Source: Paracoccus sp. S3-43 (GTDB taxonomy: Bacteria > Pseudomonadota > Alphaproteobacteria > Rhodobacterales > Rhodobacteraceae). Taken from it: a stretch of DNA of 64,000 nt. A model generated the notes under the pieces. The model ran no database searches. It was not told the DNA's origin and was given only the letters and a program-made list of their open reading frames with translations. The stretch lies in NCBI RefSeq assembly GCF_029027965.1, contig NZ_CP119082.1, positions 3,085,001-3,149,000 on the forward strand, in the 5' to 3' direction. The translations under genes and the position numbers were made by a program. Within the stretch, counting starts at the first letter, position 1. Each line of letters begins with the position of its first letter. Shown piece by piece: positions 4,020-49,548 of this stretch.

Positions 4020-4772
4020 TCAGCGGTCCCGGCCGTCCTGGTCCTCTTCATCCTCGTCCCGGTCGGGCAGGTTGAAGAAGCTGTCGGCGTTCAGATCGGG
4101 TTCCGGGGTCTTGTCCTCGTCCCGCGTCAGCGAGAAATTCTCAAGCCCCGCGATGGACGAGGGCAGGCGCGGCTCATCGCTCATCGCCAGCGAGGTTTCG
4201 GTGCTGACCAGCTTGCGCCGTTCGTCATCGCTCATCACCTCGCCCGAACCGCTTTTCTTGGCGGCCTTCTGCACGGCGGCGTCCAGTTCGGTCTGGCGGC
4301 ACAGGCCAAGCGCCACCGGGTCGATGGGCTGCATGTTCTGGATGTTCCAGTGGGTCCGCTCGCGAATCGACGCGATGGTCGGCTTGGTGGTGCCGACCAG
4401 CTTGGCGATCGCTGCATCGGGCAGTTCGGGGTGGAACTTGACCAGCCACAGGATCGCGTTCGGGCGGTCCTGGCGCTTGGACAGCGGCGTATAGCGCGGC
4501 CCGCGGCGCTTTTCCTCGCCCTCGGCGGCGGGGTTGTGCTTCAGCCGCAGGACATGGGCGGGGCTGGCCTCGCCCTTGCGGATTTCCTCGGCGTCAAGCT
4601 GGTTCGAGGCGACCGGGTCATAGCCCTTGACGCCCGCCGCCACGTCGCCATCGGCGATGCCTTGCACCTCCAGCTCGTGCAGGCCGCAGAAATCGCCGAT
4701 CTGCTTGAAGCTCAGCGTGGTATTGTCCACCAGCCAGACGGCGGTCGCCTTGGCCATCAGCGGCTTGCTCAT
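4020..4772 (-). CDS. trcR: Cell-cycle transcriptional regulator TrcR (DUF1013)
   Basis: The 250-residue protein matches the DUF1013 family, confined to alphaproteobacteria and named TrcR after work in Caulobacter. The conserved N-terminus 'AVWLVDNTTLSFKQIGDFC' reads like a helix-turn-helix. A second segment near 100-145 ('RPNAILWLVKFHPELPDAA', then 'LVGTTKPTIASIRERTHWN') resembles another DNA-binding helix pair. The C-terminal 50 residues are acidic and low-complexity. AAGGAG precedes the ATG. Function is taken from the family. Confidence 0.85.
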   Translation of the reverse strand: MSKPLMAKATAVWLVDNTTLSFKQIGDFCGLHELEVQGIADGDVAAGVKGYDPVASNQLDAEEIRKGEASPAHVLRLKHNPAAEGEEKRRGPRYTPLSKRQDRPNAILWLVKFHPELPDAAIAKLVGTTKPTIASIRERTHWNIQNMQPIDPVALGLCRQTELDAAVQKAAKKSGSGEVMSDDERRKLVSTETSLAMSDEPRLPSSIAGLENFSLTRDEDKTPEPDLNADSFFNLPDRDEDEEDQDGRDR

Positions 4773-6662: not shown

Positions 6663-7319
6663 TTATGGGCGGGTGCGGCCGGGCAGGTCGCGCGGCTGCG
6701 GCGCACGGATCCAGCCGAAGACCATCTGCGACAGCGTCGCCGCGCCGGGCAGCTTGCGCAAGGTCGATTTGACCTGTTCGAGCCGCATCACCCCGTCGAT
6801 GCGGCGGTCGATGAAGGCGCGGGTCTCGGCATGGTCGGACGAATCGTCGCCCAGCCAGAACAGCACCGTGGCGCTGATCACCGCCGACAGGGTGGCGCGC
6901 TTGGAATACCAGTTCACGTCGCGCGAGGTGTCGCCCAGCCCGGTCCAGATCACATCGGCCGTCTCCCAGACCAGCCGCGCGGCAAGGCCTGCGTTCTGCG
7001 GCAGCGACAGCGTGGCCGCCCCGGCGCGGACCAGTTCCGCATCGACCAGCATCAACCGCCGCCAGATCGCCTCGGCCACGCGGTCGCGGAACCGGCCGCC
7101 CGGCGGGGTCTGGGACAGGCTGTCGCGCAGCATCGCGTCCGCGCGGCGGTGATAGGCGGCGGCCAGCCCCGCGCCGCCTTGCGGGAAATGCACCCGCGCC
7201 AGATCGGGCGACATGGCCAGATCGCGCGCGCCCGCCATCAGGGCGCGGTCGTTCATGCCTTCGAACGGGACATGGGTCAGGGCGGCGTCAAGAAGCGCCT
7301 CGCGGTCGGTTCGGGTCAT
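6663..7319 (-). CDS. COQ9 family protein (ubiquinone biosynthesis)
   Basis: The 218-residue protein has the COQ9 C-terminal signature around 'DVNWYSKRATLSAVISATVLFWLGDDS' (residues about 137-163). COQ9 proteins are lipid-binding TetR-fold relatives that present polyprenylated intermediates to the COQ7 hydroxylase during ubiquinone synthesis. It sits directly upstream of, and in operon with, a quinone oxidoreductase gene and is divergent from rpsU with about 95 bp between them. It is expected to be peripheral to the inner membrane. Confidence 0.88.
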   Translation of the reverse strand: MTRTDREALLDAALTHVPFEGMNDRALMAGARDLAMSPDLARVHFPQGGAGLAAAYHRRADAMLRDSLSQTPPGGRFRDRVAEAIWRRLMLVDAELVRAGAATLSLPQNAGLAARLVWETADVIWTGLGDTSRDVNWYSKRATLSAVISATVLFWLGDDSSDHAETRAFIDRRIDGVMRLEQVKSTLRKLPGAATLSQMVFGWIRAPQPRDLPGRTRP

Positions 7320-7415
7320 GGCAACCTCTCTGGTCTGGACACGGGCGCCCGGCTTTGATAGGGGGGCGCATCCTGCAATCTTGCAACTCTAACCTAGGAA
7401 GGTGGTGACAACCAC

Positions 7416-7622
7416 ATGCAGGTCAATGTTCGCGACAACAACGTCGAACAGGCGCTTCGTGCCCTGAAGAAGAAACTTCAGCGCGAGGGCGTGTTCCGCG
7501 AAATGAAGCTCAAGCAGCATTTCGAGAAACCGTCCGTGAAGAAAGCCCGTGAGCAGGCCGAGGCCGTGCGCCGCGCCCGCAAGCTGGCGCGGAAGAAGGC
7601 GCAACGCGAAGGCGCTCTCTGA
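7416..7622 (+). CDS. rpsU: 30S ribosomal protein S21
   Basis: The 68-residue, strongly basic product is S21, which binds the 3' end of 16S rRNA on the small-subunit platform and helps translation initiation. The N-terminus '[31 protein letters not shown]' region and the Arg/Lys/Ala-rich helical tail are diagnostic. AAGGTGG precedes the start by about 10 bases. The TGA stop is followed in frame by codons for S-Q-R-E-G-A-L and then TAA, repeating the last six encoded residues (QREGAL). Confidence 0.97.
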
Positions 7623-7672
7623 TCGCAGCGCGAAGGCGCACTGTAAGACGACGCGATCCGCGTTTCAGTCAG

Positions 7673-7698
7673 ACCCCCGCGGCGCAGGTCGCGGGGGT
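7673..7698. terminator. GC hairpin between rpsU and esterase gene
   Basis: A perfect 9-bp stem (7673-7681 with 7690-7698) with an 8-nt loop lies in the convergent gap. It has no U-tract on either side. Confidence 0.5.
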
Positions 7699-7713
7699 AT
7701 GCGTCTATACGCC

Positions 7714-8565
7714 CTACCGAAACAGATGCAGGGCCAGGGCATCCGCCGTGGACGGCCCCATCAGAGAGCCGTGGTTTTCCTGCGGATAGGGACGGTAGAT
7801 CACCTCCAGCCCCTTCACCTGGGACAGGATGCGCACCAGCGATGTCGGGTCGTGGGGATGGTTCTGCCGCGCCCGGCCCGCCTGGGCGATCATCACCTGG
7901 ACCCCAGGATCGACCCGGCCGCCCGCCGCCGCGACGCCCCCGGCGAAGGCCGCCGCCTCGCGCTGCGATTCGCCCGCGTTCCACCAGACCGAGGGGTCGG
8001 CGGCGACATGGCGGGCGAACAGATGCGGGCGGTTGAACAGCGCGTGCAGCACGAACAGCCCGCCCAGGGAATGGCCGTAAAGGGTCATGTCGCCCTGATC
8101 CATGGGATAGCGGCGGGCCAGTTCCGGCAGAAGCCGGTCGGCGATCATCGCCAGGAACGCCTCTCGCCCGCCGGTCAGGCGGTCCGGGGGCGCGGCGCGA
8201 TAGCCCAGGATCGGCGCGATCGGCTTCATCGACCGCGAGGTCAGATCCACCCAGCGGCGGTTGGCCCCTTCATAGCTGATGCCGAACAGGATCACCGGCG
8301 CCCCCGGCGCGCGGGTTTCCCGATGCGTCCAAAGCTGCGGAAAGGTGGTGGCCCCATCCAGCGACAGGATCGCGGAATAGCCCTGCGGCGGTGGCGGCGC
8401 ATCGGGCAGGCCCACGAAGATGCGCCATTGCCGGCCTTCGGGGCCAAAGGCGAAATGGCTGGCGCGGGGATGGTCGATTTCCGGGGGCGGGTCGCGGCGC
8501 GGCTGGGCCAGGGCGGGCATTGCCGCCGTGGAGGCCAGCAGGAACAACAGATGACGACGGTTCAT
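7714..8565 (-). CDS. Alpha/beta-hydrolase esterase, exported (Fes/IroE-like)
   Basis: This 283-residue protein begins with a signal sequence carrying an R-R pair (MNRRHLLFLLASTAAMPALA), so Sec or possibly Tat export is likely. The nucleophile elbow 'YGHSLGGLFVLHALF' is near residue 163, followed by 'AADPSVWWN', a pattern of the esterase-D/IroE family that hydrolyses trilactone siderophores or other esters. A C-terminal His is in 'ENHGS'. It lies 3 bp downstream of the Lrp-type regulator gene on the same strand and has no strong ribosome-binding site, suggesting translational coupling. No siderophore genes lie nearby, so the substrate is open. Confidence 0.8.
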   Translation of the reverse strand: MNRRHLLFLLASTAAMPALAQPRRDPPPEIDHPRASHFAFGPEGRQWRIFVGLPDAPPPPQGYSAILSLDGATTFPQLWTHRETRAPGAPVILFGISYEGANRRWVDLTSRSMKPIAPILGYRAAPPDRLTGGREAFLAMIADRLLPELARRYPMDQGDMTLYGHSLGGLFVLHALFNRPHLFARHVAADPSVWWNAGESQREAAAFAGGVAAAGGRVDPGVQVMIAQAGRARQNHPHDPTSLVRILSQVKGLEVIYRPYPQENHGSLMGPSTADALALHLFR

Positions 8566-8568
8566 GAA

Positions 8569-9030
8569 TTACACCGGGATCGCCGTGGTGCGGAACACCG
8601 TGCGCAGCGCGAAGGACGAATGCATCTGCGCGACGCCCGGCAGGCGGGCCAGATGCTGGCGGTGGATGCGGGCGAAATCGTCGGTATCCTCGACCACGAT
8701 CTTCAGCAGGTAATCGGCGGACCCGGCCATCAGGTGGCATTCCAGCACGTCGGGGATCGCGCGCACGCCTTTTTCGAAAGCCTCCAGAACCTCGTCCGCC
8801 TGGCCGGACAGGGTGATTTCCACGAACACCGTCGTCTGGCGGTGCAGCTTGCGGGCGTCCAGCAGCGCCGCATAGCCGTGGATCACGCCCGCTTCCTCCA
8901 GCCGCTGGACGCGGCGGTGGCAGGCGGACGGCGACAGATGCACCCGCAGCGCCAGTTCGGCGTTGCTGATTCGGCCTTCCTTCTGAAGCAGGGCCAGAAT
9001 GCGGCGGTCTATTGCATCAAGATCGGACAT
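8569..9030 (-). CDS. Lrp/AsnC family transcriptional regulator
   Basis: The 153-residue protein has the full Lrp architecture. The N-terminal winged helix-turn-helix runs from 'MSDLDAIDRRILALLQKEGRISNAEL' to 'LSPSACHRRVQRLEEAGVI'. The C-terminal RAM ligand-binding domain includes 'CHLMAGSADYLLKIVVED' near 102. It is divergent from ald with a 133-bp gap, the arrangement of AldR-type regulators that sense alanine or other amino acids and activate alanine dehydrogenase. The ATG at 9030 gives normal family length; the frame extends upstream without support. Confidence 0.93.
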   Translation of the reverse strand: MSDLDAIDRRILALLQKEGRISNAELALRVHLSPSACHRRVQRLEEAGVIHGYAALLDARKLHRQTTVFVEITLSGQADEVLEAFEKGVRAIPDVLECHLMAGSADYLLKIVVEDTDDFARIHRQHLARLPGVAQMHSSFALRTVFRTTAIPV

Positions 9031-37561: not shown

Positions 37562-37637
37562 GGGCCCGTAGCTCAGTTGGTAGAGCAACTGACTTTTAAT
37601 CAGTGGGTCACAGGTTCGAATCCTGTCGGGCTCACCA
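37562..37637 (+). tRNA. tRNA-Lys (anticodon UUU)
   Basis: A 76-nt cloverleaf has acceptor arms GGGCCCG/CGGGCTC (one G-U pair), D-arm GCTC..GAGC, anticodon stem CTGAC-TTTTAAT-CAG with TTT, T-arm with GTTCGAATC, and an encoded CCA. It marks the left border of the accessory island. Confidence 0.95.
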
Positions 37638-37647
37638 ACAAATTCAA

Positions 37648-37678
37648 GGGCTTAGGCAGTTTGCGCCTAGGCCCTTTT
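37648..37678 (+). terminator. tRNA-Lys terminator
   Basis: GGGCTTAGGC (37648-37657) pairs with GCCTAGGCCC (37665-37674), with one G-U pair, followed by TTTT. It lies 10 bases after the tRNA. Confidence 0.8.
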
Positions 37679-38094
37679 CCGTTCGGGCTACCACCGGGCT
37701 ACCACGGAACGAAATTTCGCGCCCGCCCGGCACCGACAAGCGCGCCGGGCAGCCAGGCCTTGATCCGAACGGGCGGGTCGGGCTGGCGCATGACAGCCCA
37801 GCCGTTCGCTGGCCGGGATAGAAAGCCCAAGGCCTGCATTTTGCTCGGTAACCGTGTAACCTTGTAACCATCATTGTAATTTACTGTTTTTGCTGTCTTA
37901 TTTCCATCCCGCCAGTTACAGGCAGGGTTACAGGCTTTCCTCATGCTGTAACCGGATGGTATTGCCAGACGACTGGCGCGGCACTAGAAAAACAACAAAC
38001 ACAACCGGAACATACAATGGTTTCAAGAGGATAGATTTTTCACGCATCGGGGCGCGAATTACCCCCGTTTGGGATAGGCTGGAAAGAACCTAGT
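37679..38094. other. Gene-poor island edge
   Basis: About 416 bp between tRNA-Lys and the IS481 relic contain no convincing gene. The middle part is AT-rich and has three closely spaced GTAACC words (about 37849-37869) and further GTTACAG/GTAACC words up to 37950. An 81-codon open frame on the minus strand (37699-37944) has no recognisable family. This may be leftover DNA from an integrated element; no integrase remains. Confidence 0.45.
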
Positions 38095-38256
38095 TGTTTG
38101 ATCCCACGGTTTGATGGTGCGATCCTTTCTTGGGAATGGAAGGAGGCATTATGGGCCAAGTTCGTCACGGGAGCGCCACGACCACGCACGCCATCCGAGC
38201 GGCAATACAGCGATCGCAAGCTTCGACCGCGTCACTGAGCCGGGAGTTGGGCATCA
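38095..38256 (+). mobile_element. IS481 relic, left part
   Basis: TGTTTGATCCCACGG begins directly after a CCTAGT site and matches the end of the intact IS481 at 18534. The relic includes the start of its transposase ('[14 protein letters not shown]'). The copy differs from the intact one at many positions. It is interrupted at 38256 by an IS3-family element. Confidence 0.88.
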
Positions 38257-38336
38257 TGAGCTACCCCCCGAAAATCGGACAGTGACGGAAGCTACGATCT
38301 GAAGTCTGCTGGTCTCCAAGAACGAGGAGAACAGAG

Positions 38337-38636
38337 ATGTCGAGACGCAGGAACCACGATGCGGCGTTCAAGGCGCGTGTGGCGCTGGAAGCCGTGAAGG
38401 GGGAGCGCACAGTGTCAGAGCTGGCCGCCGAATATGGCGTGCATCCGACGATGATCCATCAATGGAAACGGTCGCTTCTGGAGGGTGCCGCAGGGATCTT
38501 CGAGCGGGGCGGCAAGGCTGCGGCAGCGGCCGAGGTTGCCGAAGAAACTGTCCGTGACCTGCACGCCAAGATCGGAGAGCTGGCCGTCGCCAACGATTTT
38601 TTGTCACGAAAGCTCAAGCCCTGGATCGGCAAGTGA
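38337..38636 (+). CDS. IS3 family transposase OrfA
   Basis: The 99-residue OrfA has the N-terminal helix-turn-helix of IS3 elements ('AAFKARVALEAVKGERTVSE', then 'LAAEYGVHPTMIHQWKRSLL') and a leucine-zipper-like tail. OrfB starts 4 bp before its stop in another frame, so a -1 frameshift probably makes the active OrfAB fusion. Confidence 0.9.
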   Translation: MSRRRNHDAAFKARVALEAVKGERTVSELAAEYGVHPTMIHQWKRSLLEGAAGIFERGGKAAAAAEVAEETVRDLHAKIGELAVANDFLSRKLKPWIGK

Positions 38637-39487
38637 GGCGCGGAATGGTTGAGAAGAACCACCCAAGCCTGTCGGTCGGGGCGCAGTGCCGCCTGCTATC
38701 GATCTCGCGGTCGTCGTTCTATTACGCGCCGCAGGGCGAGACGGCGATGAACCTCGACCTCATGCTGTTGATCGACAAGCAGTTCCTGGATACACCCTTC
38801 TACGGCGTGCGGCAGATGACGTGGCACCTGCAGAACGAGGGGCATGGTGTGAACCAGAAACGCATCCGGCGGCTGATGCGGCTCATGCGCCTGATGCCGA
38901 TCTACCAGAGGCCCAACACCAGCAAGCCGAGAAAAGGCCACAAGACCTATCCCTATCTGTTGGGCGGGCTGCGGGTGGATCGGCCCGGTCAGGTCTGGTG
39001 CGCAGATATCACCTATTTGCCGATGCGGCGGGGCTTTCTGTATCTGGTGGCGATCATGGACTGGTTCACCCGCAAGGTGCTGGCCTGGCGGATATCGAAC
39101 ACGCTGGAGGCCGACTTCTGCGTCGAGGCGCTGAACGAGGCCATCCATCGCTTCGGCGCGCCCGGGATCATGAACACGGATCAGGGCTCACAGTTCACGT
39201 CCTTCGCCTGGACTGATCGGCTGAAGCGCATTGGCACTCGGATCTCGATGGACGGCAAGGGGCGCTGCATCGACAACGTCTTCATCGAGCGTCTGTGGCG
39301 ATCCCTGAAGTATGAATGCGTCTACCTGCACGCCTGGGAAACGGGATCGCAGGCCAAGGTTGGTATTGGGCACTGGATCAACTTCTACAACCATCGACGA
39401 CCCCACACTGCCCATGGCGGGCAGCCGCCCGCCGTGGTCTACTTCAACAGCAGCGAAACCGATCAGCAGGCACAGGCAGTAGCTTAA
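38633..39487 (+). CDS. IS3 family transposase OrfB
   Basis: The 284-residue catalytic frame has an HTH_21-type segment ('YGVRQMTWHLQNEGHGVNQKR') and an rve core with Asp in 'VWCADITYLPMRRG', Asp in 'IMNTDQGSQFTS' and Glu in 'VFIERLWRSLKYE'. It begins at a GTG overlapping the OrfA stop. Confidence 0.92.
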   Translation: MRRGMVEKNHPSLSVGAQCRLLSISRSSFYYAPQGETAMNLDLMLLIDKQFLDTPFYGVRQMTWHLQNEGHGVNQKRIRRLMRLMRLMPIYQRPNTSKPRKGHKTYPYLLGGLRVDRPGQVWCADITYLPMRRGFLYLVAIMDWFTRKVLAWRISNTLEADFCVEALNEAIHRFGAPGIMNTDQGSQFTSFAWTDRLKRIGTRISMDGKGRCIDNVFIERLWRSLKYECVYLHAWETGSQAKVGIGHWINFYNHRRPHTAHGGQPPAVVYFNSSETDQQAQAVA

Positions 39488-39526
39488 ATCAGCCGGAAAG
39501 CTGTCCAAGGATCGGGGAGTAGCTCA

Positions 39527-39636
39527 TCAACCCCAAGACCGTGTCAAAATGGCGTAAGCGGGCCACAGTGGAGGATCTGAAGACCGGGCCCAAGGAGCCT
39601 CGTTCAACGGTGCTGAATGAGGAGGAAGAAGCAATA
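39527..39636 (+). mobile_element. IS481 relic, right part
   Basis: After the IS3 element the relic resumes with the codons for N-P-K-T-V and continues to about 39635, where it is cut by the next IS3-type end. The remaining two-thirds of the IS481 transposase is lost. Confidence 0.85.
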
Positions 39637-40005
39637 TGAATAGCCCCGAGTTTCTTAGACGCCTTCCCGTCTCATCATCTGCCGTCGCTCGAACTCTGCG
39701 GGCGACAGCATTCCGTTTCTCGCATGTTTGCGCTTCGGGTTATAGAACATCTCGATATAATCGAACACGTCCTGCCTTGCGTCTTCGCGGGTCCGGTAGG
39801 TCCTGCGCCTGATCCGTTCGCGCTTGAGCAGGTTGAAGAAGCTCTCGGCAACAGCGTTGTCGTGACAGTTGCCACGGCGGCTCATGGAATGCTCAAGATT
39901 GTGGGCGCGCAGGAATGCTGCCCAGTCCATGCTGGTGAACTGGCTGCCCTGATCTGAATGAACCAGCACCTTGGTCTTCGGCTTGCGCCGCCAGACGGCT
40001 ATCCT
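39637..40005 (-). mobile_element. Truncated IS3 family element
   Basis: One terminus starts TGAATAGCCCCGAGTTTC at 39637. The minus strand encodes the last third of an OrfB (about 39655-40005): 'RRKPKTKVLVHSDQGSQFTS', then 'AESFFNLLKRERI' and 'EMFYNPKRKHARNGMLSPAEFE'. The rest of the element is missing; the boundary at about 40005 is to unrelated DNA. Confidence 0.85.
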
Positions 40006-40007
40006 TC

Positions 40008-40493
40008 GTGCGTGCGGTTGATGAGGCCGAGCGATTCCAGATGACGGAACGCATCGCAAAAGGCCCTGCGCCAGATCACCAGGCGCCGAACCACCTCACG
40101 CAACTCGTTGATGACATCGACGGGTTCGTGGATAACGTGTCGCCCGAGGTGCATGCCTACGAGGTGTCCGGGAAGAATATCTTGGATCAATGGTTCAGCT
40201 ACCGCCGCCTAGATCGCACCCGCCCAATGATCGGCGACCGTCGACCGCCATCGCCACTCGACAAGGTCCAACCGGATAGCTGGCCGTCGTCGTATACAGA
40301 GGACTTGCTGAACCTACTCCATGTCCTGACGCTGCTGACCCAATTGGAGCCGGATCAGGCCGAGCTCCTGGATCGGGTATGCTCGGGCCCGCTGATTAGC
40401 GCAAAAACACTGCGCACCCAGGGCGTGTTTGACGATGCCAGCACCGCGACAAGCCGGCCCGGCGATGACCGGCAGAATGAGATGGTTTTCTGA
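40008..40493 (+). pseudogene. C-terminal fragment of a type ISP restriction-modification enzyme
   Basis: From about 40095 the frame reads 'EVHAYEVSGKNILDQWFSYR', then 'RPMIGDRRPPSPLDKVQPDSW' and 'LLDRVCSGPLISAKTL'. From family knowledge this resembles the very C-terminus of type ISP (LlaBIII-like) helicase-methyltransferase proteins of about 1,500 residues. Only this tail remains; the 5' part is replaced by the truncated IS3 element. The first 30 codons do not match and may be unrelated sequence. Confidence 0.7.
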
Positions 40494-40595
40494 GCCCTGC
40501 TTAGAAATAGACGCCGTGCTGCCTGAGCAATCGGTGATGCCACGCCGAAAGCTCCCGTTCGTCCCCGTGAGCTTCAAGCCGGCGATGCGACCGCA

Positions 40596-41312
40596 CTACA
40601 TTTCGATCCAGAGGTGAACGAGCCGAATACCCCCGAGCCCCGAACTGCGAGCGTGAGCAGAAGAGAGGCCCGCCACGCGCGATGGCGGATCATACTCTAG
40701 GAGCGACAGCTTGTCGGCGGCAGACCAGCCCTCGACGGCGTCGCTTTCGAGACCGTCGATCCAGTCGTCGAGCTGGACCGCCCACGATGGGATGTCTCTC
40801 TCCTGCACGTAGGCGATCATCGCCGCCCGATCGTGTGACGAACCGTGATGTCCCGCCTTGAAGCGTTGCACGCCGCCGGTCGTACTGAAGCGGCTGTATA
40901 GATATTCGCGCTCGTCCCGCTTGTGGCCCGTGGGAGTTGGGAGCCTCTTGCATTCGATCGGCAGGAGCGTTTGGTACTCGGTATATTCGCGGCCTTCGAT
41001 CCAGATGACCGAGCCGCTCGGCGCGACGGCGAGGTCGATCGCGCGCCGACCATCGGCGGCGTCTGGCTCTTCGCGCCTGAACTGCAGAAAATCCCAGCCT
41101 GGCGTGTGACGGCTGGCGCTGGCGAGCTTCGCGCAGAGCTGCGCGGTCAAGGCGTCCTCGCTGGTCTGCGCGGGCCGGCGGGGATCATCGCGCCAACCGG
41201 GCAGGACGCTTCCAATGAAGCCGATAAGAGCATTCATCCACTCGCCGGGAAGATGAACCTCGCTGTCCAGCGTTCCGACCTGCGCCCGGCGCTCCCCCTC
41301 GTCGGCCAGCAT
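40596..41312 (-). CDS. Predicted PD-(D/E)XK-type nuclease, unknown family
   Basis: The 238-residue protein is not one I recognise. It has a likely nuclease core: Glu52 in 'TSEDALTAQL', Asp93 in 'RRAIDLAVAPSG', and Glu120-x-Lys122 in 'TLLPIECKRLPTP', the spacing of a PD-(D/E)XK fold. 'REYLYSRFSTTGGVQRFKAG' follows. It starts 1 bp after the upstream gene's stop, so the two were an operon. The upstream gene is truncated by an IS, so the pair may be a broken defence module. Codon use looks less GC-biased than in the core genome. Confidence 0.6.
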   Translation of the reverse strand: MLADEGERRAQVGTLDSEVHLPGEWMNALIGFIGSVLPGWRDDPRRPAQTSEDALTAQLCAKLASASRHTPGWDFLQFRREEPDAADGRRAIDLAVAPSGSVIWIEGREYTEYQTLLPIECKRLPTPTGHKRDEREYLYSRFSTTGGVQRFKAGHHGSSHDRAAMIAYVQERDIPSWAVQLDDWIDGLESDAVEGWSAADKLSLLEYDPPSRVAGLSSAHARSSGLGGIRLVHLWIEM

Positions 41313-41313
41313 C

Positions 41314-41699
41314 CTAGAAGCCCTGCTCGCGCAAGTCGGCGAACACGTCATCGGCATCGCGCAGCGCGATCGATCGAGTCCAGAACCGGTGCCGGTCGGG
41401 CTTCAGCAGGAAGACGAAGCCCTTGTCGTAAAGGCGGGTGATCCGGGTGACCGTCAGACCCGAGCCGCGGCGCCCGTGGAGGAGCGCATCGAACCTGCCG
41501 CGTAGCTCATCTGCTCCCGACCAGTCCACCGCGCCATCGCCGAACGCATAAGCCCTGCAGATCGCGCCCGACCACCGTTGCGATTCGAGCGGGCGTATCG
41601 GATTGCGCGTGTAGACGGCGTTGAGCTGACGGACGAACACGGCATCGAAGTCAGCAAGAGCATCGTCTGGCGCTGCTCGCATGACCGGCGCGGTTGGAC
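41314..41699 (-). pseudogene. 3' part of an unknown gene, cut by IS407-like element
   Basis: An open frame of about 128 codons runs from the IS end at 41700 to a TAG at 41314. It has 'FVRQLNAVYTRNPIRPLESQ' and 'RLYDKGFVFLLKPDRHRFW'. An in-frame ATG at 41682 exists but has no ribosome-binding site, so this is probably the C-terminus of a larger protein. No family is recognised. It lies one base before the predicted nuclease gene. Confidence 0.5.
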
Positions 41700-41728
41700 T
41701 GCCCCCACGGAGTGGTCCGGGTTGATTG

Positions 41729-42544
41729 TTAGTGCATCGTCGGCCGCTGGTCTATTGGGATGAGGGCTTCCGGTGCGGGCGGGCGGTATCCCAGGGAGCT
41801 GTGCGGCCTGACAGTGTTGTAGTGGCGGCGCCATCGCTCGATGAGGATCTGGGCCTCCCTAAGCGAATAGAAGACTTCTGCGTCCAGGAGTTCGTCGCGG
41901 AATCGAGCGTTGAAGCTCTCGCAATACCCGTTCTCCCAGGGTGAACCCGGCTCGATGAACGCGGTCTTGGCACCAACTGCGCCGATCCAGCCCTGCACCT
42001 TCTTGGCAATGAATTCCGCGCCATTGTCGGACCTTATGAACGCAGGCGGGCCACGCAAGATGAACAGCTCCGTCAGGGCGTCGATTACGTCGGTGGAATT
42101 GAGCTTGCGGTTTGCACGGATCACCAGCGCCTCCTTCGTGAATTCGTCGATGATATTGAGCGTCCGAAACAGCCGTCCGTCATGTGTCCGGTCCTGAACG
42201 AAATCATAGGACCAGACGTGGTTCGGGTGCTCCGGTCGGAGACGGACGCAGGACCCGTCGTTCAACCAGAGCCGACCCTTCTTTGCCTGCTTTTGTGGGA
42301 TCTTCAGCCCTTCACGCCGCCATATCCGTTCCACGCGTTTATGATTTACATGCCAACCGGCGTTGTTCAGCAGTCCGGTGATCATCCGATAGCCATATCG
42401 CCCGTAGGTGCGAGCGAGCGCGATGATGTCCTCCGTCAGCCGTTCTTCGTCCGGGGCGCCGCAAGGAACCTTGCGTTGCGTTGAGCGGTGCTGCCCGAGG
42501 GTGCGGCAGGCGCGGCGCTCGGATATGCCAAGCGCCTGCCGCAC
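41729..42544 (-). CDS. IS407-group transposase OrfB
   Basis: The 271-residue rve-type catalytic frame has Asp in 'VWSYDFVQDRTHDGRLFR', Asp in 'FIRSDNGAEFIAKKVQ' and Glu in 'ENGYCESFNARFRDELLDAE'. 'VWSYDFVQDRTHDG' is characteristic of IS407 relatives in Rhizobiales and Rhodobacterales. The frame extends upstream of the ATG, and a -1 shift from OrfA is likely. Confidence 0.92.
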   Translation of the reverse strand: MRQALGISERRACRTLGQHRSTQRKVPCGAPDEERLTEDIIALARTYGRYGYRMITGLLNNAGWHVNHKRVERIWRREGLKIPQKQAKKGRLWLNDGSCVRLRPEHPNHVWSYDFVQDRTHDGRLFRTLNIIDEFTKEALVIRANRKLNSTDVIDALTELFILRGPPAFIRSDNGAEFIAKKVQGWIGAVGAKTAFIEPGSPWENGYCESFNARFRDELLDAEVFYSLREAQILIERWRRHYNTVRPHSSLGYRPPAPEALIPIDQRPTMH

Positions 42545-42576
42545 ATGATCGATGCACTTGCGACGGCGCGAAGGGC

Positions 42577-42855
42577 TTAGAAGTTTCCCCGTGCAGCCTC
42601 GCTCAGGATCATCTTGTCCAAGGTCAGATCTGACACCGCGCGCCGCAACCGCTGGTTCTCCGCCTCAAGCTCCTTGAGACGCTTCAGCTGATCCCGGTTC
42701 ATGCCGCCATACTGCTTGCGCCAGCGATAATACGTCGGCTCGGTCACGCCGATCTGCCGCACCGCGTCGGAAATCGCCATTCCCTGTCCATGAAGCACTT
42801 CGATCTGTCGAAGCTTCAGAACGATGTCTTCCGGTTTGTCTCGCTTGCCTGCCAT
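42577..42855 (-). CDS. IS407-group transposase OrfA
   Basis: This 92-residue frame starts at an ATG preceded by AGGAGG ('MAGKRDKPEDIVLKLRQIEV'). It has the helix-turn-helix 'AISDAVRQIGVTEPTYYRWRK' and a coiled-coil tail 'RLKELEAENQRLRRAVSDL'. Confidence 0.92.
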   Translation of the reverse strand: MAGKRDKPEDIVLKLRQIEVLHGQGMAISDAVRQIGVTEPTYYRWRKQYGGMNRDQLKRLKELEAENQRLRRAVSDLTLDKMILSEAARGNF

Positions 42856-42916
42856 CTGATGGTCCTCCTGAACAGGATATTTGTATCCCAGTTGGCGGAC
42901 CACTTCAGTGGGGGCA

Positions 42917-44013
42917 CTCCAGCCGAGGATGGCGGCTTCTTTGACAACCCAGCACGCGGCGTAGCGTATGAGGCAAAAGGTCAGTTCTGGGTGAACAACC
43001 ACGCCCATATTCTTTCTGGGCGTGGGGATATTGAAACAAGTTTTCTGAGATCGTGGCTAAACAGCGTCGATTGGATGCAGTACGTTTCCGGATCGACCCG
43101 CCTGAAGCTTACGCAAGCCGGAATGAGTGGTGTCGAAATCCCCCTTCCGCCACTCCCCGAGCAGCGGCGGATTGTGCGCAAGCTCGACACCCTCAGCGCC
43201 CGCAGCACCACCGCCCGCACCCACCTCCATGCCATCGAAAAGCTGGTGGAGCGGTATCGGACGGCGGTTCTGGAGGCTGCTTTTCGGGCGGAATGGGATG
43301 CGGGGTGCGATACAACCATCGCGAGCTGTTTGGAGCATGCCGAAACCGGCCTCGTCAGAAGCAAGGCAGAACAAACCGCAGGCGAGGGCCACCCCTACAT
43401 CCGAATGAACCACTACGATCTGGCTGGCAGGTGGAACGACCGTGACCTCACCTATGTCGCGGCCACATCAGCCGAGTTTGATCGGTATCAACTGAGGGCG
43501 GACGACCTGCTGTTCAACACGCGGAACAGCGCCGAACTGGTTGGCAAAGTGGCGATCTGGCCAGAGGGCAAGGACGGCTACCTGTTCAACAACAACCTGC
43601 TGCGCATGCGCTTCTCGGAAGATGTCGTGCCCGCCTTTGCCTTTTGGCAGATGTCCTCACCGCCCTTCCGGCGCTACATTGAAGGCTTCATAAGCGCCAC
43701 CACAAGCGTTGCCGCGATTTATCAGCGTTCGCTCATGGCCGCCCCATTCTGGGTGCCTGATCCCGACGAACAACGCAAAGTCCTCCGCCGCATCGAAACC
43801 GCCTTCGCCAAGATCGACCGCCTCGCCGCCGAGGCCGCAAAGGCCCTGAAACTGCTAGGCCGCCTTGATCAACGCATTCTGGCCAAAGCCTTTGCAGGCG
43901 AGCTTGTTCCGCAAGATCCGAGCGACGAACCCGCCGAAACCCTCCTCGCCCGGATCCGCGAAGCCCACGCTGCTGCACCCAAGGCCAGGCGCGGCAGAAA
44001 AGCCCGCGCATGA
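42917..44013 (+). pseudogene. hsdS: hsdS, type I restriction specificity subunit, 5' truncated
   Basis: About 365 codons remain. The end of the first target-recognition domain is followed by the conserved central region 'EIPLPPLPEQRRIVRKLDTL' and a coiled-coil spacer. The second recognition domain ends in 'WVPDPDEQRKVLRRIETAFAK' and 'LDQRILAKAFAGELVPQDP'. The start codon and roughly the first 50-100 residues are lost at the IS407-like element. No hsdM or hsdR is present, so it cannot work alone. It overlaps the NucS-like gene by 4 bp (ATGA). Confidence 0.9.
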
Positions 44014-45065
44014 CTTCGTTGTATCAGATCCGGGACGGCCACCTGCGCCCCGCCACCCGCCGCGCCCTGTCAAAGGAAGAGATGATCGAAGGTTGGGTCG
44101 CCTCGAATCCCGGTCTGGTCGGCATCGACGCCCTGATCATCGGACGACAGGTGCCGACAGACCACGGCAAGTTCATCGACCTTCTGGCCATGGACGCCAT
44201 CGGCGGGCTGGTCATCATCGAATTGAAGAAAGACCGCACCCCTCGCGAAATCGTCGCTCAGGTGCTGGATTATGCCTCCTGGGTAAGAACCCTGACGACC
44301 CCGGAAATCTATGACCGTGCCGAGAAATATCTGGGAACACGGCTTGTCACCGCGTTCCGTGACCGCTTTGGCGAAGGGGTCCCGGAACGGCTCAACGCCA
44401 GCCATTCCATGCTGATCGTTGCCAGCGAACTCGACCCTGCCTCGCGCCGGATCGTGGAATACCTGTCGGAAGAACATGGCGTCGCCATCAATACCGTTTT
44501 CTTCAACGTCTTCGAGGTCGATGGCCAGGAATGGCTGACGACCGACTTCCTGCTGGACCAGGAGGCAGTGGAGGAGCGTTCGGAACGCAAGGTCCGCGCT
44601 CCATGGTCGGGCTATTACTTCGTCAATGCCGGCTTGGGCGAACATCGTTCCTGGGCGGACATGAAGCGATATGGGTTCATCTCAGCTGGGGGCGGCGAGT
44701 TCTACTCGAAACGGCTATATCAGCTCAGCATCGGTGACGAGGTTTTTGTCTATGACAAAGGCAACGGCTACATCGGCTACGGTGTTGTGACAGCCGAGGC
44801 CCGGCCTGCGGCCGAGTTCACGACGCCTGATGGTACACTCTTCGACCAACCGCTGTCCGAACCCCGAATGAAGCGCCTTGGCGAGCCGCAAGAAAACGCA
44901 GAGCACGCCGTCGGCATCGAATGGCGCAAAACGGTTGATCCTGCCCAAGCCAAGCGCTTCAAAGGGGCGTTTGCAAACCAGAACATAGTCTGCAAGTTAC
45001 GGGATGAAGCGACAGTAGATTTCCTGACCGAACAGTTTGGGGTCACTCGACCGAGCATAACCTGA
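44010..45065 (+). CDS. NucS-like (DUF91) nuclease with C-terminal PUA/EVE-like domain
   Basis: The 351-residue protein has a NucS/DUF91-type nuclease core: Asp57 in 'GKFIDLLAMD', Glu71-x-Lys73 in 'LVIIELKKDRTPREIVAQVL' and a helix with Gln84 and Tyr88. The C-terminal half, from about 198 ('YYFVNAGLGEHRSWADMKRY', 'LSIGDEVFVYDKGNGYIGYG'), looks like a PUA/EVE-type domain, a fold that often reads modified bases. The domain call is by eye. The overlap with hsdS places it in a type I restriction locus, perhaps as an accessory nuclease. Confidence 0.75.
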   Translation: MTSLYQIRDGHLRPATRRALSKEEMIEGWVASNPGLVGIDALIIGRQVPTDHGKFIDLLAMDAIGGLVIIELKKDRTPREIVAQVLDYASWVRTLTTPEIYDRAEKYLGTRLVTAFRDRFGEGVPERLNASHSMLIVASELDPASRRIVEYLSEEHGVAINTVFFNVFEVDGQEWLTTDFLLDQEAVEERSERKVRAPWSGYYFVNAGLGEHRSWADMKRYGFISAGGGEFYSKRLYQLSIGDEVFVYDKGNGYIGYGVVTAEARPAAEFTTPDGTLFDQPLSEPRMKRLGEPQENAEHAVGIEWRKTVDPAQAKRFKGAFANQNIVCKLRDEATVDFLTEQFGVTRPSIT

Positions 45066-45211
45066 TGGCTTGATGGGTGAGAACCGACTGTTAATAGTGC
45101 GGCGTTGCAGTCGCGGCGCATCCAGAAAGCGTTCACTCATCCAATGCGCGGCGAACCATTCCCTTAGCCGCTATCCCCTCTCCTACGGAAAAATCCGCAC
45201 CACGTGGCAGC

Positions 45212-46942
45212 CTAGTCGAAGCGGATGCCGAATAGACCACCGTCAGAGGTATCTGAAAGCGTCGTTTCAAGGACATAGTCTTCAAAGCTGACGCCGCTCT
45301 CACGTTCGGCCCGGTCGATTTCATCTGAGTTGAGAAGCGTCACATATTGTATGCCCGTGGTTTCCGAGAAGTCGGCGGCGATCTGAAGGGCGCGAGCGAA
45401 CTGACGACCGTCTACTGGCTCGAAAAGGTGGCTATCATGGATGATGAAGCCTGGGCCTTCGCCGCGCCCTTTTGCCAATGCAGCGAGGGTGAGGTCGAAA
45501 CAGAAGACTTCCATGCTCATCACACCGGCGCTGCCATCAGCGGGGGTCTGTGGCAGGAAGCGCAGACCCGTATCAGTGGCTGAAATAGCCAGTTGGCCGG
45601 GCTTCTCGTATAGACGCTCCGAGATTTCCGAGAAGGTTCGGCTTGCTGTATCTATAATCATGGACCGCTCGCGACGGTCCTGACGCAGCGCGCGAACAGC
45701 TTCCTCCACCTCACGCTCAAGCGACTCGACGCGGTCTTCTAGCTTTCGGGCTTCCTGCAGACGTCCCTCAAGCTGCTTAAGTTCGGATTCGCGTCCGGCA
45801 AGCTCATCGCGCAGCCGAAGCAATTCGTCTGCTGGGCCGCTTGCGCGCAATGATCGGGTGATATTACGGCGGCGTTCTTCAATCCGCTCGCGAAGCGGTT
45901 GGCGATTCGTGATACGCTCCTGCGCCGCGGCGATCTCGTTCCTGAGATGGGATTGCCGGTTTTCGAGCAGCTTCTCGTGGAAGCGACGGACCTCTTCATA
46001 GCGATCGGTCACGAGGTCGGGGAAGATTATCCTCGCTTCATCAAACAATCGGGCGATGTCCGGTGCATCAGTGAAGACCTCCGCCTCCAAAGTCCGCGCG
46101 TTGACGTCGATCGCCTCCTGATCGATCACATCGCTATCGGATAAATCGCGAAAGTCATGATTCAATTTCGCGAGCTCGCGCTCCAGTTCGCGAAATGCGG
46201 GCAGGACATTGAATGCTTCGATCCGCTCTGCGAGACGATCGCGACCGAGCTTTACAGAAGCGATCTGTGCTTCAAGCTGAGCCTCTAGGTCAGCGCGCTT
46301 GGCCCCCTCCGCCGCAGCACTATCAAGGGCAGCCAGAGCTTTCTGTGCATTCTTGGTTTGCTTTAGCGCGGCCTTTGCTTGGTGCAGGTGACGCACCAGT
46401 TCGGCGTCGAGGCCGAACAGGTGGGCGAGTGAGGTTTCAGTCACAGCGGCGGACTGGCTCCGGAAGGTTCGTGTAGGGCTATCAAGGCCGCCATCCCTCT
46501 TGCGGCGGGCGAAATAGGTCACGAGCTGTCGGTAAGAGACATCGCCGTTGCCGCGCTTCTCCCCGAGCCCGAACCATTCCTGGCCGAGCCGCTTGCACCA
46601 CTGGGCGTTTTGAATGCGATCTACGCCAGAAGTTGGCGAGCTAATAGAGACCTGCTTGGAATTGGCGACGCTGCGCGTGACCTCTATACGCTCAGGGCCC
46701 ACATCGAGCTCGAGCGTGAAATTCCATTCGGCCAACTCGGGTGCAGCTAGGGCGCCCTCGGGCTTTCCGCCGAGAAGAAAGTGAATCAAGTCGATGGCGC
46801 TCGATTTACCGGCTCCGTTGCGGCTACGCCTCTCGCCGTCGTCGCCACTATCGGTGCGCGTCGCTAAAATTATGTTGAGACCTGGTCGGAAGTTCAACGT
46901 CCTGAATCCTGACCGGTCAGATGATAAGCGGTGCAGCATCAC
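45212..46942 (-). CDS. ABC-3C system SMC-like ATPase (DUF2326)
   Basis: The 576-residue protein has an SMC/Rad50-like plan: Walker A in 'RSRNGAGKSSAIDLIHFLLG' (Gly43-Ser47), a long coiled coil (about 180-440) and a C-terminal half with Walker B-like 'GFIIHDSHLFEPVDGRQFA' (499-504). The last part is the DUF2326 pattern. DUF2326 ATPases are the core of predicted ABC-three-component conflict systems. It overlaps the small middle-component gene by 4 bp and is last in a three-gene operon. Full length and motifs suggest it is functional. Confidence 0.88.
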   Translation of the reverse strand: MMLHRLSSDRSGFRTLNFRPGLNIILATRTDSGDDGERRSRNGAGKSSAIDLIHFLLGGKPEGALAAPELAEWNFTLELDVGPERIEVTRSVANSKQVSISSPTSGVDRIQNAQWCKRLGQEWFGLGEKRGNGDVSYRQLVTYFARRKRDGGLDSPTRTFRSQSAAVTETSLAHLFGLDAELVRHLHQAKAALKQTKNAQKALAALDSAAAEGAKRADLEAQLEAQIASVKLGRDRLAERIEAFNVLPAFRELERELAKLNHDFRDLSDSDVIDQEAIDVNARTLEAEVFTDAPDIARLFDEARIIFPDLVTDRYEEVRRFHEKLLENRQSHLRNEIAAAQERITNRQPLRERIEERRRNITRSLRASGPADELLRLRDELAGRESELKQLEGRLQEARKLEDRVESLEREVEEAVRALRQDRRERSMIIDTASRTFSEISERLYEKPGQLAISATDTGLRFLPQTPADGSAGVMSMEVFCFDLTLAALAKGRGEGPGFIIHDSHLFEPVDGRQFARALQIAADFSETTGIQYVTLLNSDEIDRAERESGVSFEDYVLETTLSDTSDGGLFGIRFD

Positions 46943-47181
46943 TGGCCTCCGACGCGACGACGAATGAGTCCGTCGTCGGTGATCGAGACCAATTTCATCA
47001 TAAAGAGTAAGTCAATAGCGAGGATGAAGAAGGCATATGAAACCGGATGAGCCTCCTGCTGCATTCGAAATTCATCCCAGATGCCGGAGACCGTACGCGG
47101 GGAGCCGAGACCGTCAAAAACCTTGCCAGCCAGCGTGAGCAGTGCACGATCTGGACTGATATTCTTTGTTGGAAGGATCAC
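46939..47181 (-). CDS. ABC-3C system middle component (MC6-like)
   Basis: The 80-residue protein ('MILPTKNISPDRALLTLAGK', 'SYAFFILAIDLLFMMKLVSI') has a winged-helix-like helix pattern with a final basic 'RRRVGG' tail. It matches what I know of ABC-3C middle component 6, a small adaptor between effector and ATPase. It overlaps both neighbours by 4 bp (ATGA), so stoichiometric translation is likely. Confidence 0.75.
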   Translation of the reverse strand: MILPTKNISPDRALLTLAGKVFDGLGSPRTVSGIWDEFRMQQEAHPVSYAFFILAIDLLFMMKLVSITDDGLIRRRVGGQ

Positions 47182-48101
47182 GGCGCAAATTCCACCACTG
47201 GAATCTCAAATATCTGACAAGTTTCGAAAAAGCGTGTCACGATCGCTAGAGCTGCGGTGTCGCGCTCTGCGTCGCCCGTGCCGCCGCCTGCGAAGACTAC
47301 CATCTCCCTGAATATGTGATCGGGTTCAAGACCCGACGTGCGGCATTCTGCGTACCGGGCCTTGAACCCTTGTGCCATACGTTCCGGTTCCTCCGGATCG
47401 GGTTGGTCGTGCAAGTAGTCTTCGACCTTCATGACGCCGGTCTGGCCGATCGAAAGAAAGTGGCGCGTCGCATCGGATAATGTGTTGAAGCTCACCTTGG
47501 TCGCGAGGTCGGCGGAGAGTGGCACGGGCTCGTTCGGATCGATGGCGATGGCGCGGCGGATCAAGGTGAGGGCTCGCCCCAGATTCGCGTAGGTGATCCT
47601 TGCCATATCCGTCGCCCGGGGCGCACGGCCATAGAGCCGCGCACGCTCCTCTGCCGGCAAGCTCCGGAGCAGGCCTAGAATGTCGGACCGAGTAAGCGGT
47701 CCCGCCGGAACCTTCAGTTCGTCGGCAAGCTGACCTATCTTGCGCACCAGTTCTGAAGGTAGCTTGTCGCGATAAAGATTGACTACGAATTTCCACTCTT
47801 GAAGCTGAGCACCCCAATGCTCCTTCGCTCCACGGAAATCTTCTTCAATCTTCGCTAGAGCGTCGTCGACGTTTGCCTGTCCGTAGCGGGGACCATAGCA
47901 CTGATATACGGTGCCGGTTGAAAGCCGGAACCCATCGCACTTCAGGTCGCCACGTCGCCCCATGGGAATTGTAGGCGTGAAGTCATCTTTCCAGAGCGAC
48001 TTTGCAACCAACTGAAATCGCGTTTCGAATGCGTCACCTTCGAGATCTTTTAAATCCGATTCGGCGCGGAGGCGCTGCCATTCCCAATCAAATTCGTCCA
48101 T
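47178..48101 (-). CDS. ABC-3C system effector, restriction-endonuclease-like
   Basis: The 307-residue protein has an N-terminal nuclease-like core: Glu26 in 'EGDAFETRFQLVAKSLW', Asp52/Asp56 in 'GRRGDLKCDGFRLSTGTV' and 'YQCYGPRYG' where PD-(D/E)XK enzymes have E/Q-x-K. The usual Lys is replaced by Tyr, so catalysis is uncertain. The C-terminal two-thirds is helical and ends 'QIFEIPVVEF', probably contacting the partner proteins. The ATG at 48101 follows GAGGGG; an ATG 72 bases upstream is possible. It is the first gene of the operon. Confidence 0.78.
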   Translation of the reverse strand: MDEFDWEWQRLRAESDLKDLEGDAFETRFQLVAKSLWKDDFTPTIPMGRRGDLKCDGFRLSTGTVYQCYGPRYGQANVDDALAKIEEDFRGAKEHWGAQLQEWKFVVNLYRDKLPSELVRKIGQLADELKVPAGPLTRSDILGLLRSLPAEERARLYGRAPRATDMARITYANLGRALTLIRRAIAIDPNEPVPLSADLATKVSFNTLSDATRHFLSIGQTGVMKVEDYLHDQPDPEEPERMAQGFKARYAECRTSGLEPDHIFREMVVFAGGGTGDAERDTAALAIVTRFFETCQIFEIPVVEFAP

Positions 48102-48426
48102 TCGCCCCTCATTCTCCGCTGCCAACTGCCCATCGATCCCACAAACAAATGTCGAACCTCTCAGTTTGGCCAACGCCAGCTATAGCGATTTTGCGGCCAT
48201 AGTGGATGGGTCGCAAGAGACTTAAGGCGCCGCTCGGTGGGCGAACCAGTTCGCCTCATTATGAGGACTTAATTGTCCTGCCGCACCTCAAGGCATCCCT
48301 GTCGCCGTAAACATCGATAGCAGCACGCAATCCCGCTGCGTGCTTTATGATCTCGATAAGCGCAAACACAATATGTTTCAGTATTTTAGTGAAATTGTGG
48401 CCTCGTCACGAGGCAATTCCCTTAAT
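48102..48426. other. Upstream region of the ABC-3C operon
   Basis: About 325 AT-richer bases between the ABC-3C operon and the tRNA-Pro terminator contain no gene. A perfect 8-bp hairpin AGCACGCA/TGCGTGCT (48322-48329 with 48337-48344) could be an operator or a terminator. The operon promoter must lie here. Confidence 0.5.
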
Positions 48427-48449
48427 CAAAAAGGCAGAACTATCTGCCT
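48427..48449 (-). terminator. tRNA-Pro terminator
   Basis: On the minus strand, AGGCAGA-TAGT-TCTGCCT followed by TTTTTGATT forms a classic intrinsic terminator 16 bases after the tRNA-Pro CCA end. Confidence 0.88.
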
Positions 48450-48465
48450 CTTATCAATCGAAAAC

Positions 48466-48542
48466 TGGTCGGAGCGAGAGGATTCGAACCTCCGACCCCC
48501 TGCTCCCGAAGCAGGTGCGCTACCAGGCTGCGCTACGCTCCG
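48466..48542 (-). tRNA. tRNA-Pro (anticodon CGG)
   Basis: A 77-nt cloverleaf has acceptor CGGAGCG/CGCTCCG, anticodon arm CTGCT-TCGGGAG-CAG with CGG, T-loop GGTTCGAATCC and an encoded CCA. It is followed by its own terminator and marks the right border of the accessory island. Confidence 0.95.
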
Positions 48543-48589: not shown

Positions 48590-49548
48590 TCAGGGGCGCG
48601 GCGGCCATATTCTTTGCAAAAGCGTGGTGCGGGGCGCCGTCACCGTTTCCGCGCGGATGCGCGAGGCGATCACGGGGCGGTTGGTGGAATTGCCGCCCCT
48701 GCCTTCGCGCCAGACGATATAGATGCCCGACCCGATGATCACCGTGGCGCCCAGGACGGTGGGCAGGTCCAGAACCTCGTCGAAGAAGATCCAGCCATAG
48801 GCCGTGGCCCAGAGGATCTGCGAATACTGCATCGGGGCGACGATCGCGGCCTCTCCGGCGCGATAGGCGAGGATCAGCAGAAACCCGGCGATCAGGCCAA
48901 GGCAGGCGATCACCCCGGCAAGGGCCAGATGCGGCAGTTCCATTGGCCGGTATCCGATGGCCAGCGATGCGCCGGTGGCCAGGAAGTTGCCCAGCATCGG
49001 CCACATCAGCAGGACCAGCGGGCGTTCCGACCGGCCCAGTTTGCGCAGGATGACGGCGGTCATGGCCGACCCATGGCCGCCGCCAGCGCGGCCGCATGAC
49101 CCGGCCCCAGGGGCTGCGCGCCGGGGCGCAGCACGATCAGGACGCCGGCCAGGCCCGCCACGACCGCCAGCCACCGGTGCATCCCGACCCGTTCTCCCAA
49201 GATCGGGATCGACAGGACCGTCACCAGCAGCGGCGCGGCGAACAGGATCGCATAGACCTGCGCCAGCGGCAGTTGCGAGAACGCGAAGAAGCTGCCCATC
49301 CCGGCGATCACCCCCACCACCGTCCGGGCCGCGACCCAGCCGGGATGGGCCGGGCGCAGCGTGCCGGGGGTGGGGTCGCGCATGATGATGACCATCACCA
49401 GCGGAAAGGACAGAAGCGACGAAAAGAACAGCACTTGCAGCGCGGGATACTGCGTGCCCAGCGTCTTGATCACCACGTCATGCGTCGCATAGAGGCCCAT
49501 GGCCAGCAAGGCCAAGGCCGCGCCGCGAACGTTTGACGCGCCCTCCAT
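48590..49548 (-). pseudogene. EamA/DMT family transporter, frameshifted
   Basis: Two frames together make a normal ten-helix EamA carrier of about 320 residues. The first half (49060-49548, 'MGLYATHDVVIKTLGTQYPA') ends prematurely in 'AAALAAAMGRP'. The second (from about 49065, 'GSAMTAVILRKLGRSERPLV') ends at 48590. The halves differ by one missing base near 49070-49078. A sequencing error is possible, but as given the gene is broken. Its start overlaps the leuB stop by 1 bp (TGATG), so the two were coupled. Confidence 0.8.

Follow-up and report, generated by a model that had tools for sequence, protein, structure and literature searches.

An ABC-three-component operon of the MC6/CTD10/DUF2326 branch, with a probable role in immunity, in Paracoccus sp. 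S3-43

The operon and its conservation

In Paracoccus sp. S3-43, three adjacent minus-strand genes form a candidate ABC-three-component (ABC-3C) operon, which we analysed within a 64,000-nucleotide stretch of contig NZ_CP119082.1 (positions 3,085,001 to 3,149,000; hereafter the window, in whose numbering coordinates are given unless a relative is named). The first gene (47178..48101) encodes an effector of 307 residues, with a restriction-endonuclease (REase)-like N-terminal domain at about residues 1-158 and a CTD10 domain at 199-299; the second (46939..47181) encodes an 80-residue middle component of family MC6, predicted to form a single winged-helix domain; and the third (45212..46942) encodes a 576-residue SMC/Rad50-like ABC ATPase with the Walker A motif RNGAGKSS and a C-terminal DUF2326 region in which Walker B reads IHDSH. 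CTD10 and MC6 are Pfam families named for the C-terminal domain and the middle component of ABC-3C systems, whose original classification is reportedly that of Krishnan and colleagues in 2020.

All three open reading frames (ORFs) are uninterrupted and lie, in one direction, where a first-pass annotation of this DNA had placed them, but the ATGA overlaps that it described were misread. At both junctions, where the effector stop meets the middle-component start (47178..47181) and where the middle-component stop meets the ATPase start (46939..46942), the plus strand reads tcac, which is GTGA on the coding strand: the four shared bases lay a GTG start over a TGA stop, and GTG is the start codon of both downstream genes. 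An upstream TTG at 48173 could lengthen the effector ORF; because in two relatives (L013, L014) the ORF can start no earlier than the position that corresponds to the ATG at 48101, we take this ATG as the start.

Homologous operons occur in Sphingobium, Tsuneonella and Sphingomonas (L013-L015), with ATPases 86-87% identical to that of the window. The alignment of their DNA with the window is confined to 48105 down to 45197 or 45203, a few bases off the operon ends, and the ratio of nonsynonymous to synonymous change (dN/dS) is 0.055-0.084 for all three genes (9 of 9 codon comparisons). Because DNA homology ends at the operon edges and dN/dS is low, the operon is, as judged from these alignments, a self-contained 2.9-kb cassette maintained by purifying selection. 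Promoter and terminator scans gave counts at the level of shuffled sequence (2 vs. 1.5 and 3 vs. 3.4, respectively).

The ATPase and the middle component

A profile search of the kind that the first-pass annotation had proposed matched all three Pfam families above their cut-offs: DUF2326 on the ATPase (E 1.3e-34, 119.4 bits, cut-off 28.7), MC6 on the 80-residue protein (E 2.9e-17, 62.8 bits, cut-off 27.2) and CTD10 on the effector (E 1.9e-14, 54.8 bits, cut-off 28.1). The ATPase also matches AAA_23 (E 5.7e-7, 30.8 bits, cut-off 27), and the operon proteins are the sole DUF2326 match and the sole MC6 match of the genome. The reading of the small protein as a middle component, for which the lack of any such match would have been telling, is thus upheld by a score well over the cut-off. 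PADLOC gave no match for this protein, NCBIfam gave none for it or for the effector, and it showed no similarity to one Lamassu-type MC3 in a single comparison; LmuC is not in the 50 rows listed with the MC6 model, which excludes nothing.

A scan of 84,980 species genomes returned 222 related stretches, the best 80 of which were fetched. These 80 genome loci were picked with a pair of ATPase peptide patterns, of which one spans Walker B, and the set of 86 loci contains near-duplicates: 37 of the 80 are left at 90% ATPase identity, and L067 and L009 appear to be the same contig. A middle component is present in all 86.

The ATPase had been described as SMC-like with an intact Walker A, and this holds: RNGAGKSS occupies residues 41-48, and R41, N42, G45, K46 and S48 are identical in 82 of 82 distinct rows. 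Walker B, in contrast to this intact motif, reads I-H-D-S in the motif alignment and is without the catalytic Glu. Because one selection pattern spans this motif, its invariance among the 80 loci is partly built in; among loci found otherwise, His-Asp-Ser was present in 5 of 5 family loci from the MC6 profile, 4 of 4 loci with an HNH-type effector (L140-L143) from a profile, and 4 of 4 plasmid loci (L149-L152) from tblastn, but L144 and L145 read His-Asp-Gly. The motif is thus Asp-Ser in the HNH-type relatives and Asp-Gly in L144 and L145, which have other C-terminal domains, and it is Asp-Gln in one Lamassu-type locus. According to passages of PMC10586767, LmuB generally has Gln for Glu in Walker B, with low ATP turnover expected, and Asp-Ser may lower turnover in the same way.

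The effector

The annotation's view of the effector as REase-like agrees with a fold comparison, in which the predicted structure has the restriction-endonuclease fold of the PD-(D/E)XK superfamily. The comparison, whose LmuACB structures in the PDB include 9hqx and 9uxh, ties the effector to LmuA, a link that sequence searches of solved structures did not make; the latter gave no meaningful match, whether run with the three proteins or with their profiles. In place of the canonical (D/E)xK motif, the third strand (residues 64-69) carries Q67-C/S-Y69. In the alignment of 82 effectors, D52, D56, G57 and K84 are identical in all, and K54, Q67 and Y69 in 81.

The residues Q67-C-Y69 at the place expected for (D/E)xK, together with the Ala that replaces the Gln in plasmid relative L151, are what one would see if the effector were a DNA-binding pseudo-nuclease and the operon a regulatory or inactive one that does not cut DNA. 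Near-invariance of the seven residues named above, however, would be easier to explain by an active site whose lysine has moved than by drift; members with the same C-terminal domain bear an HNH-type domain; and dN/dS is low. We therefore consider an inactive nuclease unlikely and favour a putative nuclease, an activity suggested by its motifs, in which the invariant K84, in the following helix (residues 78-99), may replace the missing lysine.

The N-terminal domain is exchanged among relatives. Four loci (L140-L143) carry an HNH-type domain in place of the REase type and all keep the CTD10-MC6-DUF2326 set, with HNH_2 at E 5e-4, 8e-6, 2e-7 and 0.016, respectively (over the cut-off in two of the four), and PADLOC HNH effector models at E 2e-20 or better on the two tested. 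On an Agrobacterium plasmid, an HNH endonuclease gene occupies the effector position; the effector of L144 carries CTD12, and the effector profile search of L145 was without match. CTD10 itself is found at E 0.1 or better in all 29 aligned effector members. Such swapping matches the modular effector logic that passages of PMC10586767 describe for ABC-3C and Lamassu.

As a separate observation, L146 contains a stand-alone 114-residue ORF (4119-4463) that has the motif of the restriction-type N-domain but lacks a C-terminal domain; about 3 kb farther downstream is an ORF resembling, by eye, a cytosine methyltransferase.

Distribution and neighbourhood

The system is rare. Within the same family, 5 of 394 genomes have MC6; the ATPase is found in 3 of 125 genomes of the genus (the other two belonging to an HNH-type and a CTD12-type system) and in 9 of 385 genomes of the class, the window genome being counted each time. 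In the class sample, both profiles occur together in eight genomes and each occurs alone in one. Bacillus subtilis, a control genome, also matches MC6 and DUF2326, probably at yydBCD.

In the ATPase tree, the window groups with Sphingomonas, Pseudomonas entomophila, Lichenibacterium and an alphaproteobacterial bin (5 of 49 rows), in a clade with support 100/100 and a branch of 2.63 that is separate from the ATPases of other members of its family. This placement, which mixes Alpha- and Gammaproteobacteria, fits horizontal transfer, with the caveat issued by the tree program that more than one label change is no proof. Relatives are present on 59 plasmid records, 24 of which are predicted conjugative. 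A tblastn search of phage records found no homologue; nor did an IMG/VR search with the ATPase sequence only, a search form that catches close relatives only and whose three pattern hits are unconfirmed.

The pairing of an SMC/Rad50-like ATPase with a nuclease resembles DNA-repair machines, and some neighbours in relatives are ordinary (a thymidylate synthase in L013, and a UvrC RNase H domain in 1 of 106 neighbouring proteins), so that a housekeeping repair module rather than a conflict system might be envisaged. Its rarity at all three taxonomic levels, the mixed clade and the low-GC island around it, flanked by two tRNA genes (see below), all oppose this, and we give it almost no credence. 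Housekeeping context around DUF2326 genes, which the first-pass annotation had named as grounds for doubt, did not appear in a survey of the 106 neighbours, which were drawn, with no control set, from 27 of the 37 non-redundant loci (the other ten have less than 2 kb on one side). Among the matches listed (the first 25 of 100 Pfam families), no family exceeds 4 of the 106: resolvase has four, and IS66 transposase, recombinase, an integrase-type domain, AbiEii, UvrD helicase, TonB receptor, GAF and radical SAM have two each. From PADLOC (the first 25 of 261), GajB, AbiEi, AbiEii, PD-Lambda-3_B, capP, a DRT-associated helicase and mad3 have two each. The mobile and patchy spread is indirect support for a conflict role, as far as genome comparison can suggest one.

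A rival reading is a selfish addiction cassette, in which the ATPase and the middle component would mainly restrain a toxic nuclease and the operon would persist by killing the cells that lose it rather than by fighting phage. This explanation gains from the overlapping three-gene layout with DNA homology stopping at its own edges, and from the plasmid records. It also gains from L016, which retains the middle component and the ATPase without a recognisable effector, as expected if both were harmless alone. Against it, a conserved SMC-like ATPase would suit a sensor more than an antitoxin, and Lamassu relatives are reported as defence systems in passages of PMC10586767 and PMC8565338, the latter describing a Lamassu type II system that protects against phage; the co-occurrence counts in the class sample do not separate the two. 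On balance we judge addiction improbable, although less so than an inactive nuclease. The L016 locus itself lies in Pseudomonas entomophila (6758-8743, ATPase 78% identical), and its DNA similarity to the window begins at the middle-component start.

Relation to known systems and a possible mechanism

The operon combines an SMC/Rad50-like ATPase bearing Walker A, a small middle component, and an exchangeable N-terminal domain fused to an ABC-3C C-terminal domain; the MC6, CTD10 and DUF2326 matches support the ABC-3C assignment that the annotation had made from gene layout. The kind of system is ordinary, in that NCBI already annotates it in other genomes ('ABC-three component system protein', 'middle component 6'): the copies from Enterobacter kobei, Streptomyces and Phaeobacter plasmids are alike in layout, overlaps and sizes, but the window ATPase is only 35-36% identical to theirs and falls in a separate clade.

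PADLOC's best model for the ATPase is PDC-M68B, alike end to end (E 9.6e-139, 461.6 bits, model positions 1-581 of 581). The companion effector model, PDC-M68A (253 positions), spans HNH effectors (1-246 on 1-251; two tested) but matches only the C-terminal half of the window effector (model positions 113-251), whose N-terminal domain is REase-like instead. PADLOC thus has a gap here, since its PDC-M68 effector model fits the HNH version and the middle component has no match.

Passages of PMC10586767 place ABC-3C within the Lamassu superfamily and equate the middle component with LmuC; those of PMC12409362 state that DdmABC fits ABC-3C and is classed as Lamassu type II. Because LmuB (PDLC03859, E 1e-60 or better) occurs in only 1 of 198 family genomes, a single Lamassu-type locus was used for comparison with Lamassu type II (LmuA-LmuC-LmuB, DdmABC). 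That locus has MC3 and DUF3732, whereas the window has MC6 and DUF2326; its Walker B is Asp-Gln rather than Asp-Ser, the catalytic Glu being missing in both. The zinc-hook CxxC, present in many but not all LmuB according to passages of PMC10586767, is not present in the window ATPase. A strict PADLOC Lamassu label was rejected, as LmuB is not the best model (E 7.2e-15, 53.2 bits) and the Walker B residue is Ser rather than Gln.

We hold with considerable confidence that the genes constitute a complete ABC-3C (Lamassu-superfamily) immune operon, probably with a DNA-sensing ATPase, an adaptor and a gated nuclease. By analogy with Lamassu, the DUF2326 ATPase would dimerise through its head and coiled coils and recognise an abnormal DNA structure (an end, a hairpin or a replication intermediate) presented by an incoming phage or plasmid; hairpin and DNA-end sensing are listed in passages of PMC12904381. 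The winged-helix MC6 protein and the effector CTD10 would dock on the ATPase and hold the nuclease silent until DNA and ATP, bound without efficient turnover (Ser for the catalytic Glu), trigger effector release or oligomerisation. Passages of PMC12409362 cite three preprints for the release of LmuA and its assembly into a tetramer that activates its nuclease, and those of PMC12799240 describe Lamassu effectors as activated by oligomerisation. The restriction-enzyme-like domain of the effector would then cut DNA and halt the invader, probably at the expense of the cell. In this picture, DNA-structure sensing, assembly of the complex, effector release and oligomerisation, and the abortive outcome follow Lamassu work, whereas low ATP turnover and nuclease activity are suggested by the motifs.

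More tentatively, and at somewhat less than even odds in our view, the operon may belong to a distinct ABC-3C clade, in which the restriction-type nuclease has a relocated catalytic lysine (Lys84, in the helix that follows the third strand) and is under the control of one winged-helix adaptor and of an SMC-like Asp-Ser ATPase that binds ATP and barely hydrolyses it. If true, this would be a one-shot switch made of parts unlike the Lamassu complexes solved so far.

The annotation's remark that such systems are little studied experimentally does not hold for the group at large, given the placement of ABC-3C in the Lamassu superfamily (passages of PMC10586767) and the LmuA and LmuACB structures in the PDB. 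The MC6/CTD10/DUF2326 branch looks like the experimentally unstudied part: a full-text literature search, judged by title and abstract, found no paper testing the MC6/DUF2326 branch, and PMC10868621 is a genome paper containing the terms DUF2326 and middle component 6. The operon is a clean, intact example of this branch, whose better-known cousins already have structures; a 2.9-kb cassette closely related to copies in Sphingomonas, Sphingobium and Tsuneonella, it lends itself to work on the middle component's role and on how a nuclease lacking the usual lysine is switched on.

The surrounding island

The operon was said to stand at the end of an island, and it does occupy the terminal position in a low-GC stretch between tRNA-Lys (37562-37637) and tRNA-Pro(CGG) (48466..48542, minus strand, ARAGORN), the latter with its 3' end toward the operon. 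GC content is 0.57-0.66 per kb at 37-49 kb (at most 0.61 in ten of the twelve kb) vs. 0.60-0.76, mostly above 0.64, elsewhere. Similarity to genus relatives ends at 37637-37657 on the left (3 of 3 stretches) and between 48399 and 48462 on the right (4 of 4), and the island (37638-48465) has the 3' end of a tRNA gene at each edge, Lys on one side and Pro on the other. In none of the four relatives compared do the flanking genes dapF and leuB lie together: two have them on different contigs, and in the remaining two they are separated by about 89 kb and 0.8 Mb. The site therefore also marks a rearrangement, and an empty site was not demonstrable in these four. No direct repeat of the tRNA-Pro end of at least 14 bases was found in window 1-48000, the best being 13 bases in common with tRNA-Lys. 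In L113, 7548-7607 is a 60-base imperfect repeat (83%) of window 48400-48459, just downstream of tRNA-Pro; it lies about 1.5 kb away in that relative and is possibly an old insertion boundary.

Island contents include transposases, presumably of the IS3 type, a type I specificity gene, a PDC-S11 gene and a type IIG fragment. That the operon is the island's only intact multi-gene defence-like system, as had been claimed, holds for the ORFs scanned (some small island ORFs lie outside the scan), but a complete single-gene defence candidate, PDC-S11 (44010-45065, plus strand; PADLOC E 5.9e-122), with a weak NucS-like region, adjoins the operon. It overlaps by four bases the type I specificity gene, whose ORF starts within a transposase gene, and the two are probably left over from a type I restriction operon that had an accessory nuclease. 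The type IIG remnant is a 161-residue ORF (40008-40493, plus strand) matching the last part of a model for type IIG restriction enzyme-methyltransferases (positions 934-1054 of 1086, E 8.1e-34). Beyond tRNA-Pro, an EamA transporter gene (48590-49548, minus strand) is broken into two overlapping frames by a frameshift or a sequencing error; the corresponding stretch of L113 is a single open frame of 387 codons from stop to stop.
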